From NCBI RefSeq assembly GCF_019711315.1, contig NZ_CP081294.1:2294001-2358000 (forward strand): a stretch of DNA of 64,000 bases, read 5' to 3'. Positions 17,866 to 22,706 of this stretch are shown piece after piece. This DNA is from Qipengyuania gelatinilytica. Its GTDB lineage: Bacteria; Pseudomonadota; Alphaproteobacteria; Sphingomonadales; Sphingomonadaceae. Positions within the stretch are counted from its first letter, which is position 1, and each line of letters starts with the position of its first letter. The position numbers and the translations under genes are program-made. A model generated the notes under the pieces. The model was not told the DNA's origin and did no database searches. It was given only the letters and a program-made list of their open reading frames with translations.

Positions 17866-17890
17866 GGAACGGATGAAGCTCCTGGCCGTT
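17866..17890 (+). promoter_or_regulatory. EcfG-type (general stress response) promoter
   Basis: GGAAC (17866-17870), 16-bp spacer, CGTT (17887-17890): a perfect match to the alphaproteobacterial EcfG consensus GGAAC-N16/17-CGTT. It lies 22 bp upstream of the ATG at 17913 and begins 8 bp after the TetR stop. Confidence 0.7.
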
Positions 17891-17912
17891 GTTAGGGCAA
17901 AGGAGATTTCAT

Positions 17913-18170
17913 ATGATCGGTAAGGTAATCGGAGCATTCGTGGGCGACAAACTCGCCAAGCAGACCAGTGGCCTCGGCGGTGCCGGCGGCGCCGCGCTCG
18001 GCGTGGTCGCGGCATCGGTGCTTCGCCGCATGAGCTTGCCCGCAATGCTTGCGCTTGGCGCAGGCGGTTATGTCGCGAAGAAGGTGTTCGAGAAGAAGAG
18101 TTCCGAGCAGGGCGGTACGACGACCGCAAGCGAGCCGGCAAGCAAGGCCAGGGCGCGCAAGGCAGCATAA
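17913..18170 (+). CDS. small glycine-rich membrane protein, putative EcfG target
   Basis: An 85-residue protein with a Gly/Ala-rich hydrophobic middle (SGLGGAGGAALGVVAASV and LPAMLALGAGGYV) and a charged Lys/Arg/Ser tail. The ATG at 17913 follows AAAGGAGA by 8 nt; the upstream in-frame TTG has no such site. No family is recognised, though the glycine-zipper look recalls small stress-induced membrane proteins. A perfect EcfG promoter lies directly upstream and an intrinsic terminator at 18192 follows, so it is a single-gene stress transcript. Confidence 0.75.
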   Translation: MIGKVIGAFVGDKLAKQTSGLGGAGGAALGVVAASVLRRMSLPAMLALGAGGYVAKKVFEKKSSEQGGTTTASEPASKARARKAA

Positions 18171-18191: not shown

Positions 18192-18220
18192 AAGGGCCGT
18201 CCGCTTGGGCGGCCCTTTCC
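18192..18220 (+). terminator. intrinsic terminator of the small membrane-protein gene
   Basis: AAGGGCCG-T-CC pairs with GG-G-CGGCCCTT around GCTT, followed by a short T run. It lies 22 bp downstream of the stop at 18170. Confidence 0.65.
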
Positions 18221-18277: not shown

Positions 18278-18823
18278 ATGAGCGCGCACTTCTCGATCGA
18301 GGACCCGCTTGGCGGGATGAGCGACCTGTTCAGGGACAGCAAGATATCGCTTTCCCTGGCCGATTACACGCGGGACGATTGCCCGCTGATCGGGATTAAT
18401 GCGCGCTTCGCCGAGCTGTCCGGTTATTCGGCTTCGGAATGCTTGGGGAGGAACTGCAGGTTTCTCCAGCCCGAGGGCGGAGCCGGCCCGGTACGCGAGA
18501 GAATGCGGGCCTTCCTGCATGAGGAGGAAAAGGATCACTCCCGCTTCGTCGTGCCCAATGTGCGCAAGGACGGGACGCCGTTCCTGAATTTGCTCTACAT
18601 GTCGAAACTGCAGCGGGACGGGCGCACGGCGCTGATCCTGGGATCGCAATTCGATATCAGCAGGGCCAACGCTAACGACAGCGAGATCTATGACCGCGCC
18701 TTGCACGAAGATTTGATCAACCTCAAACTATTGACTGAAAAAACGAATTGGAGTCTTGTAACCAGCCTCGAGGCGCTCGCTTCGAGCCATGCGATCATAG
18801 CACAGGCGAGGATCGATCCTTAG
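18278..18823 (+). CDS. short LOV-domain blue-light photoreceptor
   Basis: A 181-residue single-domain protein. The LOV photocycle motif is intact: GRNCRFLQ at 57-64 with the adduct-forming Cys60. The FMN-contact residues are at the expected places: N94 and N104 in NVRKDGTPFLN, and Q124 in GSQFDIS. A helical tail of about 50 residues follows, typical of a dimerising or signalling J-alpha region, with no attached output domain. The next gene, 25 bp downstream, is a CheB-CheR-HWE kinase, so the LOV protein probably acts in trans on that kinase. Erythrobacter relatives are known for LOV-kinases, but here the sensor is a separate polypeptide. Confidence 0.9.
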   Translation: MSAHFSIEDPLGGMSDLFRDSKISLSLADYTRDDCPLIGINARFAELSGYSASECLGRNCRFLQPEGGAGPVRERMRAFLHEEEKDHSRFVVPNVRKDGTPFLNLLYMSKLQRDGRTALILGSQFDISRANANDSEIYDRALHEDLINLKLLTEKTNWSLVTSLEALASSHAIIAQARIDP

Positions 18824-18848
18824 CCATTGAATAAGGGCGGGCGTAGCT

Positions 18849-21800
18849 GTGGCCGAAGAGAATGCTGGCAAGACTACTTTTCCGATAATCGGTGTCGGGG
18901 CTTCGGCGGGTGGCCTCGAAGCCCTGCGGTCGATGTTCAGCGGATACAGCGAAGAGCTTCGGATGGCCTTCGTGGTGGTCCAGCATCTCGACCCGACGCA
19001 CGAATCGCTGATGGCCCAGCTTATCGAGCGCTATACCCCGATGGAGGTGAAGCAGGCTGAGGGCGGCGAGAAGATCGAGCCCAACCATATCTACGTTATC
19101 CCGCCCGGCCATGGCCTGGCCGTGGAGGACGGTGTCCTGAAACTTACGGAATTCACAGATCCGCGCGGGATGCGTCGCCCGATCGACGACTTCTTCGAAA
19201 GCCTGGCGCGAGACCGCGACAACAATGCCGCCTGCGTCATACTGTCGGGTACAGGAGCCGACGGCAGCAGGGGACTCAGGCTCATCAAGGAGCGTGGCGG
19301 CATCTGCGTCGTACAGGAGCCGGAAACCGCGGCCTATGATGGAATGCCCGCAGCGGCCATCGGCACGGGGCTGGTCGACATCAAATGCCCCCCTAGCGAG
19401 ATACTCAAATACCTCGCCGACTTCTTCGAGCGCGGACATCTGGCCGAAGCTGCTGAAACCGACGACGGCCGAATCGCAGACCACGTGATCGAGCTGTGCG
19501 AGATCTTGCGCGACCGCGTCGGCCACGATTTCAGCGGATACAAGCGTAGCACCCTTAATCGCCGGGTGGCGCGCCGCATGCAGGTTCTGGGCATCGACGA
19601 GGGCAAGGAATACGTCGACCATCTGCGGGAAAACGAGAGCGAGTGCCGCGCCCTGCTGCGAGATCTCCTGATCAACGTCACGCAGTTCTTCCGCGATCCC
19701 AAGCATTTCGAGGTATTGCAAGAAACGGTGATCGACAGCCTCGTGGCACAGGCGAGGGATGGAGAGGATATCCGCGTCTGGGTGCCCGGTTGTTCGAGCG
19801 GTGAGGAAGCCTACTCCATTGCCATGATGTTCGCCGATTCCAGCGAGCGGCAGGGCAAGCGTCCCTATGTCCAGATATTCGCCACCGATATCGACGAGGG
19901 CATGCTTTCGATCGCCCGATCGGCGACCTATTCGCTGTCATCCTTGAATGACATCCCCAACCGCTATCAGGAAAAATACGTCTTCGGCGGCACAGACCGC
20001 TTTTCGATTTCGCCGCGCATCAGGGACATGGTTCGCTTCAGCGAACACAACGTTGTTCGCGATCCGCCCTACTCCAAGATCAGTCTTATCAGCTGCCGCA
20101 ATTTGTTGATCTATTTCAACGAAGACCTGCAGAAGCTGACCTTGCCGTTATTCCATTTCGCCCTTGCCGAGGACGGCTACCTGTTTCTCGGCTCGTCTGA
20201 AACGATCGGACGACACGACGATCTTTTCGAGACAGCGGAACAGAGCACGCGGATATTCCGCAAGAAGAACGTGAAGGGCAATTACACGCTCCGCCTTCCA
20301 GGTGAGATGGCCCGCACTTCAAAGTTGCGGACGAGAAATCCCGAAGAAGGCGCGCCGCGCAACAACCGTCCGAACGAACTTCAGGCGCTCAAGATTCTCG
20401 CGGATCGCTACTCGCCCGTGAGCCTCCTCGTCGACCATGAAGGCATGCTGCTCGAACGTTGGGGGTCGGCAGGACGCTACCTAGAATTTCCCGATCGCAT
20501 CGAGCGGAACGTGCATGTCCCGACGCTTGCGCGGCCCGGACTGCGTGAAGTCATTTCGCCGCTTATCCGCAAGGTCAAGGAAACCGGACGGCGAGCGGCT
20601 GCCAAGAACATCCAGATACGTACCGACTTCGGGACTATCGAGGCCCGCATCGTTTGTGAGGAGGTCCAGTCTTCCGGTTTCCTGCTGGTCATCCAGGAGA
20701 CCGGTGCGCTGCAGCTTTCGGAAGTCGATGATTTCGACGAATTCGATCTGGAAGACGGGCAGCGGCAGTTTCTCGAAGAGGAGCTGCAGGCAACGCGGCA
20801 TCGCCTCCGTTCGACCGTCGAGGAACTCGAGACCACGAATGAGGAGCTGAAGAGCTCCAACGAAGAAATGATGTCGATGAACGAGGAGCTCCAGTCGACC
20901 AACGAGGAGCTCACCACCGTCAACGACGAGCTCAAAAACAAGGTCGACCAGCTCACTGTTGCCAACTCCGATCTCAAGAACTTCTTCGACAGCACTCAGC
21001 TCGCGGTGCTCGTTGTCGACCCCGATCTCCGTCTGCGCAGCTATACCGACGAAGCGCTCGATCTTTTCCCCATCGACAAGAGCTATATCGGCCAGCAGCT
21101 TGGTGAATTGCCGCACCGGCTGGCTTCCACCGAGTTCGTCAATCTCGCGCGCGAGGCTGCCAGCTCGGGCAGGCAACGCGAAATTAGCCTACATTCGAAG
21201 GAGCTCGATGCAGAGCTTATCCTGCGCGTCATCCCTTATCGCCTGCTAGATGGGGAGGTCGAAGGTGCGACACTTGTCTTCACGGATGTCACCCAGGCGC
21301 TGTCGCTTGAGCGCGATCTGCGCGAGGAACGCGAACGTCTGAGGCTGGCTCTCGAGGTCGCGAAAATCGGCATCTGGGAATACGAGCCCAAGACCGATCG
21401 TACGGTCCTAGACGGGACGGAGCGCCAGCTCCTCAATCTTTCGGATGACGACCCCGGCGATTCGATGGAGCCGATCCTCGATCTGCTGTCGGAGGACGAC
21501 CGCAGCCGTATCAACCGTGCCCTGCGTATTGCGATCGACGGCGGCGAGATTTTCGACGAGACTTTCCGTCTCCCGCTAGCCGATGGCGAATTCCGCTGGC
21601 TGCACGGGCTTGGCAAGCCGATCGAAATCGCTGGCGAACGCAAGTTCATCGGGGTGACTTTCGACATCACGCCGGAGCGCGCGATCCTGGCCCAGCGGGA
21701 TCTCATGATCCGCGAGATGAACCACCGGGTGAAGAACCTGTTCTCGGTCATCTCGGCGATGGTCAGCATTTCGTCGCGCGGCGCGGACGATGTGAAGGAA

Positions 21801-22271
21801 TTCGCGACCGCACTTCGCGACCGTATCCATGCGCTCGGGCGCTCGCATGCGCTCACCACGCCCCGGCCCGAAGGGCGGCCGGGCGAAGTGGAACTGAAGG
21901 ACCTGGTCGAAACGGTACTCGAGCCGAGCCGAGGTGGACAGAAAATCTCGATGCCCTCCAGCATCGTGGAGGTCGGCGACGAGCAGGTGACTTCGCTGGC
22001 GCTCATCTTCCACGAATGGGCGACGAACTCGGCCAAATATGGAGCCCTGTCGAGCGAGTATGGATCGATCGACATCGATTGGACTGTCGATGACGGCGAA
22101 ATCTCAATTCAGTGGATCGAGAAAGGGCCAGCTTCGGAAGGCGACGATGTCGCAGGTTTCGGAACGCGCCTCATCGAAACCGCGGCGCGCCAGCTACATG
22201 GCAAGGCCACAGGCGAAGCGACCGACGAGGGATACCGGCGGACACTCGTCTACCCTACCTCATCCCAGTGA
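18849..22271 (+). CDS. CheB-CheR-PAS-PAS-HWE hybrid sensor histidine kinase
   Basis: A 1140-residue cytoplasmic fusion starting at GTG 18849. Domains: CheB methylesterase 12-195 with Ser19 (GASAGG), His46 (QHLDP) and Asp138 (GTGADGS); CheR methyltransferase about 215-480 with VWVPGCSSGEEAYSIA; a coiled coil about 640-715 of EELxxTNEEL repeats; two PAS domains (about 720-940); then an HWE/HisKA_2 kinase with phospho-acceptor His959 (MNHRVKNLFS) and an ATPase domain with HEWATNSAKYG and GFGTRL. Both chemotaxis-type active sites look intact, although no che cluster or MCP is nearby. HWE kinases often feed the general stress response. LOV precedes it and a REC-only regulator converges behind it. 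Confidence 0.93.
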   Translation: MAEENAGKTTFPIIGVGASAGGLEALRSMFSGYSEELRMAFVVVQHLDPTHESLMAQLIERYTPMEVKQAEGGEKIEPNHIYVIPPGHGLAVEDGVLKLTEFTDPRGMRRPIDDFFESLARDRDNNAACVILSGTGADGSRGLRLIKERGGICVVQEPETAAYDGMPAAAIGTGLVDIKCPPSEILKYLADFFERGHLAEAAETDDGRIADHVIELCEILRDRVGHDFSGYKRSTLNRRVARRMQVLGIDEGKEYVDHLRENESECRALLRDLLINVTQFFRDPKHFEVLQETVIDSLVAQARDGEDIRVWVPGCSSGEEAYSIAMMFADSSERQGKRPYVQIFATDIDEGMLSIARSATYSLSSLNDIPNRYQEKYVFGGTDRFSISPRIRDMVRFSEHNVVRDPPYSKISLISCRNLLIYFNEDLQKLTLPLFHFALAEDGYLFLGSSETIGRHDDLFETAEQSTRIFRKKNVKGNYTLRLPGEMARTSKLRTRNPEEGAPRNNRPNELQALKILADRYSPVSLLVDHEGMLLERWGSAGRYLEFPDRIERNVHVPTLARPGLREVISPLIRKVKETGRRAAAKNIQIRTDFGTIEARIVCEEVQSSGFLLVIQETGALQLSEVDDFDEFDLEDGQRQFLEEELQATRHRLRSTVEELETTNEELKSSNEEMMSMNEELQSTNEELTTVNDELKNKVDQLTVANSDLKNFFDSTQLAVLVVDPDLRLRSYTDEALDLFPIDKSYIGQQLGELPHRLASTEFVNLAREAASSGRQREISLHSKELDAELILRVIPYRLLDGEVEGATLVFTDVTQALSLERDLREERERLRLALEVAKIGIWEYEPKTDRTVLDGTERQLLNLSDDDPGDSMEPILDLLSEDDRSRINRALRIAIDGGEIFDETFRLPLADGEFRWLHGLGKPIEIAGERKFIGVTFDITPERAILAQRDLMIREMNHRVKNLFSVISAMVSISSRGADDVKEFATALRDRIHALGRSHALTTPRPEGRPGEVELKDLVETVLEPSRGGQKISMPSSIVEVGDEQVTSLALIFHEWATNSAKYGALSSEYGSIDIDWTVDDGEISIQWIEKGPASEGDDVAGFGTRLIETAARQLHGKATGEATDEGYRRTLVYPTSSQ

Positions 22272-22287
22272 GGCTATTGCAGTAGTC

Positions 22288-22638
22288 CTAGTTGAGAGCG
22301 CCCGCGATCGCGGCGGCTATTTCGTCGGGGGATGCGGGTTTGTCGATGCGGCCACACGAGGCGAATTCCTCGCGCAATTCCTCGTGGTTCAGGTTCGCGC
22401 TGACGAAAACCACCGGCCTGCCATGCTCCACGATCTTGCGCGCGAGCGGCCACACCGGACTGCCACCAACGTCGATATCGAGCAGCGCAACATCGGGAGG
22501 AGAACCAGACTCGATGGCGGAAATGGCATCTTCGATGGTGGTGGATTCCGAATGCACCCCGTAACCGAGATCTTCCACTGTCATTACGAGATCGAAAAGC
22601 ACAAGTGCCTCGTCATCGACGATCATCACATCGGCCAT
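22288..22638 (-). CDS. single-domain response regulator (REC only)
   Basis: 116 residues form one receiver domain: acidic pocket D8-D9 (IVDDE), phospho-acceptor D54 (ALLDIDVGG), S80 (VFVSAN) and K100 (IDKPAS). There is no output domain, and it is not of the FATGUY type. The ATG at 22638 gives the usual REC start; the frame continues upstream but through a promoter. It converges on the HWE kinase gene (17 bp between stops) and is the obvious candidate partner. A perfect EcfG promoter 43 bp upstream makes it part of the general stress regulon, suggesting feedback on kinase output. Confidence 0.9.
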   Translation of the reverse strand: MADVMIVDDEALVLFDLVMTVEDLGYGVHSESTTIEDAISAIESGSPPDVALLDIDVGGSPVWPLARKIVEHGRPVVFVSANLNHEELREEFASCGRIDKPASPDEIAAAIAGALN

Positions 22639-22680: not shown

Positions 22681-22706
22681 AACGCGCGGAGCCTCGAAAT
22701 CGTTCC
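22681..22706 (-). promoter_or_regulatory. EcfG-type promoter of the response regulator
   Basis: On the minus strand GGAAC (22706-22702), 17-bp spacer, CGTT (22684-22681): a perfect consensus match. Transcription would start near 22673, about 35 nt before the ATG at 22638. Confidence 0.72.

Follow-up and report, generated by a model that had tools for sequence, protein, structure and literature searches.

A LOV gene that stands free of any effector, directly before a kinase gene with fused CheB and CheR domains, raises the question of whether it encodes the light sensor of that kinase, and of what the methylation enzymes of such a kinase would act on. The locus lies within the window, the whole 64,000-nucleotide stretch of DNA that was analysed. 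A first-pass annotation had described it as a LOV gene, a CheB-CheR-HWE kinase gene and a convergent gene for a single-domain receiver (REC), and the open reading frames were found where it placed them, with 25 bp between the LOV stop and the start of a kinase of 1140 residues. The kinase stop and the REC end are tail to tail and 16 bp apart, and the mechanically called REC frame extends farther upstream than the ATG chosen here.

18194-18215, + strand: terminator-like element, a G+C-rich inverted repeat and then a run of T, separating the upstream gene from LOV (read from the sequence)
18278-18823, + strand: LOV gene, ATG start, 181 aa (ORF call); the AlphaFold model of its product shows the LOV core (residues 16-130, approximately), the J-alpha helix (132-154) and a further helix (170-179); no effector domain
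18849-22271, + strand: kinase gene, GTG start, 1140 aa (ORF call and Pfam)
22288-22638, - strand: REC gene, ATG at 22638, end at 22288, 116 aa (PF00072, 2.9e-8)

The LOV protein carries the motif GRNCRFLQ, which includes Cys60, and in its 181 residues only PAS families were matched in Pfam (PAS_9). Asn59, Cys60, Arg61, Leu63, Gln64, Asn94, Asn104 and Gln124 are invariant in all 32 aligned LOV homologues, so the earlier description of Cys60 and the FMN contacts as intact holds. With its adduct cysteine in GXNCRFLQ and these contacts, the protein is predicted to be photoactive, and it has the architecture of a short LOV protein, with no fused effector and with helical extensions (residues 132-154 and 170-179 in the model). 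The mean pLDDT of the model is 82.8, with values of 48-73 from residue 161 onward. Profile matches in the PDB are LOV proteins, RsLOV first, and Foldseek likewise ranks RsLOV highest (identity 24-27%; TM-scores reaching 0.77 on the query and 0.80 on the target). Neither protein belongs to the LOV histidine kinase family NF052306, which requires a single chain with both LOV and kinase and a score above 450: the LOV protein scores 74 bits and the kinase 110 bits.

The LOV gene with this C-terminal tail is present in 31 of 397 genomes of the family (own genome included), and a kinase of this clade lies directly downstream on the same strand in all 31, which represent 16 genus codes. The first-pass annotation had named as evidence against its reading a LOV gene elsewhere without this kinase in relatives; within the family the two are adjacent in 31 of 31. 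Tailed LOV genes were counted as matches of at least 126 bits that reach residue 179-180, a threshold set after the gap was seen; this excludes 26 lower matches (99 bits or less, tail uncovered; two of these, G649 and G130, have frames some 230 aa long) as well as a remnant in G026 (108 bits). In a 32nd genome there is a deletion remnant. The distance between the matched stretches of LOV and kinase is 14-217 bp in 25 genomes and 873-951 bp in six. Gene order is the same in two named relatives, and the flanking genes are mostly different among the 17 loci compared. At two loci a Crp/Fnr-type gene has been inserted (L039, by Pfam; L042, by membership of the same BLAST group), yet the linkage is kept. 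The LOV-linked kinases form one clade comprising 32 of the 42 rows of the kinase tree, with one label change and a moderate SH-aLRT support of 88; the tree comes from a quick search and has long branches at L079 and L086. A plain LOV histidine kinase split by a frameshift was ruled out by the separate start, the LOV protein's own tail and the same split in 31 of 31.

The LOV gene could instead be a co-transcribed passenger, the kinase sensing through its own PAS-like domains while the LOV protein acts elsewhere, as RsLOV and DsLOV do on photosynthesis genes, or simply shares the regulation of the operon. The nearest solved fold is that of RsLOV, and RsLOV and DsLOV influence photopigment genes, the accessible part of the report on them naming no kinase partner (PMC4335406); related CheB-CheR-HWE kinases without a LOV gene also exist (L046, L047). 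We nevertheless consider the passenger explanation rather unlikely, because a linkage of 31 in 31 over 16 genus codes, amid flanks that mostly differ and despite the Crp/Fnr-type insertions, argues against it. LOV and kinase are inherited as a pair, and most likely they act in trans as sensor and kinase. Adjacency of genes in itself reports co-inheritance, not binding. At class level, a search for the tailed LOV with E-values up to 1e-25 gave matches in four of 385 genomes: the own genome, LOV domains in frames of 577 and 401 aa, and a short LOV of 199 aa in G447. Among the ORFs listed for the 17 kb that surround this G447 gene none is of kinase size (the largest being 697 aa), so outside the family there are short LOV proteins that lack this kinase.

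The Pfam order of domains in the kinase is CheB, CheR_N, CheR, PAS_10, PAS_3 and HWE_HK. Residues of about 508-617, passed over by Pfam and by the first-pass annotation, appear in the model to adopt a further PAS-like fold.

18888-19412, + strand: CheB methylesterase, residues 14-188, Ser19/His46/Asp138 (PF01339, 2.7e-55; CheB chains matched in the PDB)
19488-20255, + strand: CheR methyltransferase, residues 214-469 (PF03705, PF01739; aligned to solved CheR structures)
20370-20699, + strand: extra PAS-like domain, residues about 508-617 (strand and helix order in the AlphaFold model)
20760-20993, + strand: continuous helix, residues 638-715, candidate methyl-accepting region (conservation profile and AlphaFold model)
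20985-21293, + strand: PAS domain, PAS_10/PAS_4 (Pfam)
21336-21668, + strand: PAS domain, PAS_3 (Pfam and AlphaFold model)
21696-22262, + strand: HWE DHp and ATP-binding domains, His959, Glu1056/Asn1060, Trp1089-x-Glu1091 (PF07536)

The active sites checked are conserved, in line with the earlier description of the methylesterase and methyltransferase domains as active-looking. In an alignment of 34 kinases, two of them without LOV, the CheB residues Ser19, His46 and Asp138 are kept in 33 rows (the remaining row has a gap there), and Arg282, Gly314, Glu319, Asp347, Asn418 and Tyr422 of CheR and His959, Glu1056, Asn1060, Trp1089 and Glu1091 of the HWE kinase are kept in all 34. These residues are taken as the catalytic ones, and the CheB triad was placed by its motif. 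The CheB domain has the Ser-His-Asp triad of a methylesterase, and the CheR domain the SAM-binding fold and the conserved residues common to solved CheR proteins. The HWE assignment rests on 55.9 bits against a Pfam cut-off of 22.8, together with the H-box His, the N-box Glu and Asn and the Trp-x-Glu sequence. The model of the whole kinase has a pTM of 0.45, with the coil in low confidence. The three PAS-like domains of the kinase could be the real sensors, in place of LOV. CheB-CheR fused to a kinase is a common class, entered in databases under names like 'CheB/CheR fusion protein'.

The best-conserved part of the kinase is the coil lying between CheR and PAS, with a mean column identity of 0.945 as compared with 0.56-0.79 in the catalytic domains. 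It is a single helix (residues 638-715) in the AlphaFold model, at a pLDDT of about 40-61. Glu-Glu pairs occur every seven residues at 658, 665, 672, 679 and 686, and a sixth at 644 is in the same register; none of 20,000 shuffles matched six pairs in one heptad register. Among 190 genomes of the class Alphaproteobacteria, 19 contain 23 coil-bearing ORFs, in which CheR is in the same frame in 21, split over two frames in one and absent in one. In a set of 240 proteins (the best 120 of 7977 and the best 120 of 3614), the 238 with CheR keep 5-8 Glu-Glu pairs, whereas the two without CheR, from one clade, keep three, most pairs being gone and the heptads retained; one of these two also lacks the CheB histidine. 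The coil was not found in eight of 120 proteins, which were dropped from the count made with an anchor pattern, and a second count took all 240.

The first-pass statement that no chemotaxis receptors are nearby is true of the window; beyond it, the genome has five MCP-signal and two CheW-domain matches and a che cluster, some 43-53 kb upstream of LOV, that includes a CheR and a CheB. The fused CheB-CheR is not encoded with MCP, CheA and CheW genes, and a chemotaxis role for it was dropped since the genome has its own CheR/CheB set. That the fused enzymes modify ordinary chemoreceptors and so couple light to taxis or adaptation is a most improbable explanation: the MCP-signal matches and the che cluster would allow it, but this cluster brings its own CheR and CheB, the kinase holds a conserved candidate substrate in cis, and the coil accompanies fused CheR in the class sample. 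Because of the separate che cluster, the fused CheB-CheR needs another substrate. We suggest, tentatively and with some doubt, that kinases with fused CheB and CheR are self-contained receptors capable of adaptation, whose own CheR and CheB would act on the coil by reversible carboxyl methylation and so set the gain of the kinase without chemoreceptors; here, with a detachable blue-light sensor, this would supply the general stress response with a light signal that adapts. Among the open-access matches listed, no proposal of a substrate for CheB-CheR fusion kinases was found in the titles and the beginnings of the abstracts.

In the REC protein, Asp9, Asp54 and Lys100 are invariant in 14 of 14 sequences and Ser80 nearly so. 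Models of the PhyR and LovR type match it weakly. Its best NCBIfam match is the PhyR family, which combines a sigma-like domain with a receiver (NF006623, above 240 bits); REC is a receiver domain alone and reaches 45 bits, far below the cut-off of 240, and its assignment as PhyR was dropped. It was also rejected as a FATGUY receiver of the SdrG or MrrA kind, the stretch in the place of the motif reading F-V-S-A-N. Upstream of the gene is a candidate promoter element.

22681-22706, - strand: EcfG-type sequence GGAAC-N17-CGTT, 68 nt before the start codon of REC (pattern search)

The published EcfG motif is GGAAC-N17-20-GTT (PMC6599016), and the pattern used for testing was GGAAC-N16/17-N-GTT, at most 160 nt upstream. 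It precedes 12 of 20 convergent REC genes and 0 of 20 LOV genes at the same loci, the 12 not being independent, since they include the remnant L044 (outside the tree) and the close relatives L007, L008 and the window itself. By comparison, it occurs in 110 of 14,000 random windows and upstream of 11 of 264 script-called genes, five of these being genes of the module. The starts were assigned by script, so that some RECs lacking the motif may have wrong starts, and at L069 and L070 a start codon was not found. The window contains the stricter form with CGTT four times, where 1.04 occurrences would be expected, and two of 100 shuffles reached four. The pattern is also matched 79-139 nt upstream of five of nine co-directional RECs, but these matches are read as coding sequence because they lie inside the kinase frame, which ends about 10-30 bp before REC. 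The LOV gene of the window lacks the motif; outside the 20 convergent loci a match lies within 200 nt of LOV in four (L039, L042, L067 and L070), and a match at the L066 LOV gene is an artefact of position.

On the kinase tree the convergent rows with the motif are 10 of 10 in the window's clade and one of nine elsewhere, plus the remnant L044, and the link to stress is therefore shown mainly for the window's clade. The genome itself encodes PhyR (366.9 bits, cut-off 240) and an ECF sigma gene, and the EcfG pattern also occurs before PhyR, in the sigma-factor gene region and before another receiver gene. Judged by the promoter motif, REC would be made under the general-stress sigma factor. The output of the pathway, which had been called unknown, now has a lead in this motif and in the PhyR and ECF sigma genes, mainly for the window's clade.

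The proposed synteny of LOV, kinase and REC thus stands for LOV and kinase (31 of 31) and is looser for REC. At 35 loci REC is convergent in 20 and co-directional in nine (two without LOV), and in six a search reaching 900 bp from the kinase end did not find it; for these reasons REC is not an obligate partner. It might serve some unrelated neighbour as output, or be a gene of the general stress response placed there by chance, given that its orientation varies, that it was not found beside the kinase in six loci and that its promoter motif is not common to LOV. We think this improbable, in that 29 of 35 loci have a REC no more than 900 bp from the end of the kinase, two LOV-less kinases included, amid flanking genes that otherwise mostly differ.

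On balance we lean slightly towards a split blue-light sensory unit, in which LOV would signal in trans to the kinase and the kinase to REC or PhyR, with the coil methylated in cis. (i) LOV would bind FMN and form a cysteinyl adduct in blue light, as its invariant residues suggest. (ii) LOV may act in trans on the kinase through its helical C-terminal tail or by changing its dimer state in the light, consistent with the 31 of 31 linkage. (iii) The HWE kinase would pass phosphate to REC, to PhyR-type receivers or to both. (iv) REC, under the general-stress sigma factor, may form a feedback or phosphate-sink branch like that of LovR with LovK, to which its motif, gene position and the logic of the family point. 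(v) The fused CheR and CheB would reversibly methylate the Glu-Glu pairs of the coil, providing chemoreceptor-like adaptation to steady input. In some marine bacteria the LOV-kinase pair would thereby probably feed light information into the general stress response. As the same genome has an ordinary fused LOV-HWE kinase, the split unit is an addition and not a replacement. Few partners of short LOV proteins are known, and this family gains a fixed partner gene, which makes the partner question directly testable; CheB-CheR fusion kinases, a common class, gain a testable job. If the coil is methylated in cis, methylation-based adaptation would extend beyond chemoreceptor arrays and could couple to light and stress signalling.

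The methylation helices of chemoreceptors have Glu-Glu pairs at the seven-residue spacing seen in the kinase coil; they differ in that the kinase matches no MCP-signal family in Pfam and has the enzymes fused in cis. CheB/CheR fusion kinases ('two-component system, chemotaxis family, CheB/CheR fusion protein') are alike in CheB, CheR, PAS, HWE and coil, and the clade described here differs by its dedicated upstream LOV gene. The LOV-HWE kinases (EL346, LovK, Brucella LOV-HK; NF052306), which in Alphaproteobacteria are connected with the PhyR/EcfG stress response by the parts consulted of two reports (PMC12148442, PMC5964349), share the LOV photochemistry residues and the HWE kinase, whereas here LOV is separate and the kinase also contains CheB and CheR, a coil of methylation-like type and three domains resembling PAS. 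LovK-LovR, SdrG and MrrA likewise present a single-domain receiver beside an HWE kinase and a stress-sigma promoter, and LovR acts as a phosphate sink according to the accessible portion of PMC5964349; REC, in contrast, has no close match to the LovR model and no FATGUY-like sequence, and is usually convergent and not in the operon. RsLOV of Rhodobacter sphaeroides and DsLOV are without effectors, as is the LOV protein here, but the family described here is set apart by a C-terminal tail of its own and by a kinase gene as its fixed partner; short LOV proteins are described, in the part of PMC4335406 available, as only probably acting through a partner protein. For the action in trans there is a parallel in H-NOX, where, by the available text of PMC8738867, a free-standing sensor gene adjoins a kinase gene and its product controls autophosphorylation in trans; H-NOX is a gas-sensing heme protein, and its likeness to the LOV-kinase pair is an analogy of mechanism.

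Gene positions proposed for three neighbouring genes of the window in the first-pass annotation are borne out by the open reading frames:

18278-18823 (+), LOV protein
18849-22271 (+), CheB-CheR-PAS-HWE kinase
22288-22638 (-), REC, a single receiver

The LOV protein has 181 residues, with PAS_9 as its top Pfam match and LOV proteins as its best matches in the PDB. Its AlphaFold model (mean pLDDT 82.8) comprises a LOV core and a J-alpha helix (residues 132-154), with a second helix at 170-179 that is less certain, and the nearest solved fold is that of RsLOV, a short LOV protein. In the kinase, Pfam and AlphaFold together place CheB, CheR and a PAS-like domain that has no Pfam match, in this order, before a long helix, which is followed by two PAS domains and the HWE kinase. 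The residues checked in the three enzyme domains are conserved across 34 aligned kinases, those of CheB in 33, with a gap there in one row. REC is a plain receiver in which the acidic residues, Asp54 and Lys100 are present.

The adjacency of the LOV and kinase genes exceeds chance neighbourhood. Among 397 genomes of the same family, including that of Q. gelatinilytica, a tailed LOV (a short LOV protein with its own C-terminal tail, as in the window) occurs in 31 genomes from 16 genus codes, and the synteny search suggested earlier as a check found the kinase clade 3' of it on the same strand in 31 of 31. The gap between matched stretches is 14-217 bp in 25 of these genomes and 873-951 bp in six, all of genus code g37; in the two inspected (L039 and L042) it contains one related gene, and the same six loci lack REC beside the kinase. 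In genome G627 the kinase reaches the contig end. Flanking genes are common only to the three closest relatives and to three pairs (L036/L037, L038/L041 and L039/L042) among 17 loci compared, and the LOV-linked kinases form a single clade adjoining the LOV-less ones (SH-aLRT 88 in a quick tree). The LOV-kinase unit is a real, inherited, split light-input unit, in which light would be sensed in trans. Departures from the usual arrangement include:

L039:9503-10273, Crp/Fnr-type regulator gene (Pfam) between LOV and kinase, with a matching gap in L042
L044:7960-9110 (genome G026), a remnant in which an internal deletion runs from LOV residue ~95 into the kinase end

In the remnant, LOV is cut past residue ~95, the kinase end alone is left and REC is intact. 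A class-wide draw of 385 genomes contained no tailed LOV beyond the Q. gelatinilytica genome, and one short LOV of another family in that draw had no nearby ORF of sufficient length for this kind of kinase. In protein databases, LOV and kinase of these families both appear under the names Thalassococcus and Litorisediminicola, genera of the Rhodobacterales, on contigs whose lengths agree between the two lists; this suggests horizontal transfer of the pair. One stop codon is marked inside the matched frame in each of G754 and G665 (kinase) and G638 (LOV), which may be local artefacts or decay; separately translated spans of the G754 and G665 kinases contain none. The LOV-less relatives L082 and L079 have a second CheB-like stretch (tblastn) 5' of the CheB-CheR kinase on the same strand.

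Over 32 LOV-linked rows, the mean column identity reaches 0.945 in kinase residues 655-712; the values in the same rows are 0.79 (CheB), 0.72 (CheR), 0.63 (DHp) and 0.56 (ATP-binding domain). Residues 655-712 fall within one helix (638-715, the coil) predicted by AlphaFold at low confidence, with heptads that are mostly N-E-E-[L/M]-x-[S/T]-x. All 32 rows keep the five Glu-Glu pairs between 658 and 687 unchanged, and none of 20,000 shuffles reached the six-pair heptad register. Ten LOV-less CheB-CheR kinases, some of them hybrid kinases of another type as judged by their C-terminal ends, have the first pair in 7-8 cases and the other pairs in 9-10. A search with the coil alone in 190 alphaproteobacterial genomes gave 23 ORFs in 19 genomes, and a CheR domain lies 5' of the coil in the same frame in 21 of these; in G378, CheR is split across two frames, and in G337, CheB and the coil are present and CheR is absent. 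Among the matches listed, 19 of the 21 CheR matches in frames of at least 1000 aa have the coil; G212 has a divergent coil with Glu-Glu pairs still visible, and no coil was found in G238. Proteins of the G337 type are as follows:

L087:3088-4962 (G337), P0245, P0246, CheB-coil-PAS-HWE proteins without CheR and with few Glu-Glu pairs

Both the protein of G337 and a close relative keep the heptads but are down to 3 Glu-Glu pairs, whereas the nearest CheR-bearing relative has 8; over the eight heptads compared, the numbers are 3 and 7. One of the two CheR-less proteins has also lost the CheB histidine. In two lists of the best 120 each, the 238 proteins that carry CheR all have 5 to 8 pairs. Both the co-occurrence of coil and CheR and the pair counts test the idea that the coil may be methylated in cis by the fused CheR; the CheR-less proteins stand for a single evolutionary loss and are suggestive, no proof. 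The genome has a separate chemotaxis cluster, with CheA, CheW, a CheY-like receiver, CheB, CheR and MCPs, so that the fused CheB and CheR domains are unneeded there. Inside that cluster, a GGDEF-EAL protein gene (L073:6265-7857) has an MCP on one side and the CheR gene on the other.

Of 35 loci (the remnant and two LOV-less kinases included), 29 have REC no more than 900 bp from where the kinase ends, convergent in 20 and co-directional in nine. The co-directional order, seen in the two LOV-less relatives and among the early branches of the LOV clade, points to a probable later inversion of REC. For Sphingomonas melonis the published EcfG motif is GGAAC-N17-20-GTT (PMC6599016). Twelve of the 20 convergent loci have the form GGAAC-N17/18-GTT at 33-69 nt 5' of the REC start; it occurs before none of the 20 LOV genes of these loci and in 110 of 14,000 random 160-nt windows. 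On the kinase tree it is clustered, with 10/10 convergent rows of the window's clade and 1/9 others; the motif-bearing remnant, counted in the 12, is absent from the tree. Within the window's clade the two boxes are constant and the spacers vary, which speaks for selection. An EcfG-type motif (17866-17890), kept in L007 and L008, also marks the start of the small gene just 5' of LOV (17889-18170), and a terminator-like repeat lies between this gene and LOV.

Elsewhere in this genome the pattern precedes PhyR and a further receiver gene and is present in the region of the sigma-factor gene, which makes it meaningful here. Two loci elsewhere in the genome are relevant:

L075:4265-9509, general stress locus with receiver gene, PhyR, CHASE-HWE kinase and ECF sigma gene, and three EcfG-type motifs
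L076:6672-7793, fused LOV-HWE kinase of the ordinary type (373 aa, GQNCRFLQ)

Judged by its promoter pattern, REC would be a member of the general stress regulon, and the unit would plug into that regulon, with phosphotransfer and a stress output to be expected. The fused kinase, besides the split unit, gives the genome at least two likely blue-light inputs.

Among the titles and abstract starts listed (up to 20 papers per listing, with few subscription journals covered), none described the pairing of a LOV protein and a CheB-CheR-HWE kinase, or a substrate of fused CheB-CheR. Caulobacter LovK and LovR are controlled by the stress sigma factor and draw phosphate out of the pathway (PMC5964349), and by analogy such draining is the likeliest model for REC. 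Short LOV proteins probably signal via a partner protein, according to PMC4335406, and H-NOX with its adjacent kinase (PMC8738867) is the nearest analogy of mechanism to the LOV-kinase pair. We regard the unit as a new form of LOV-HWE stress photoreceptor.
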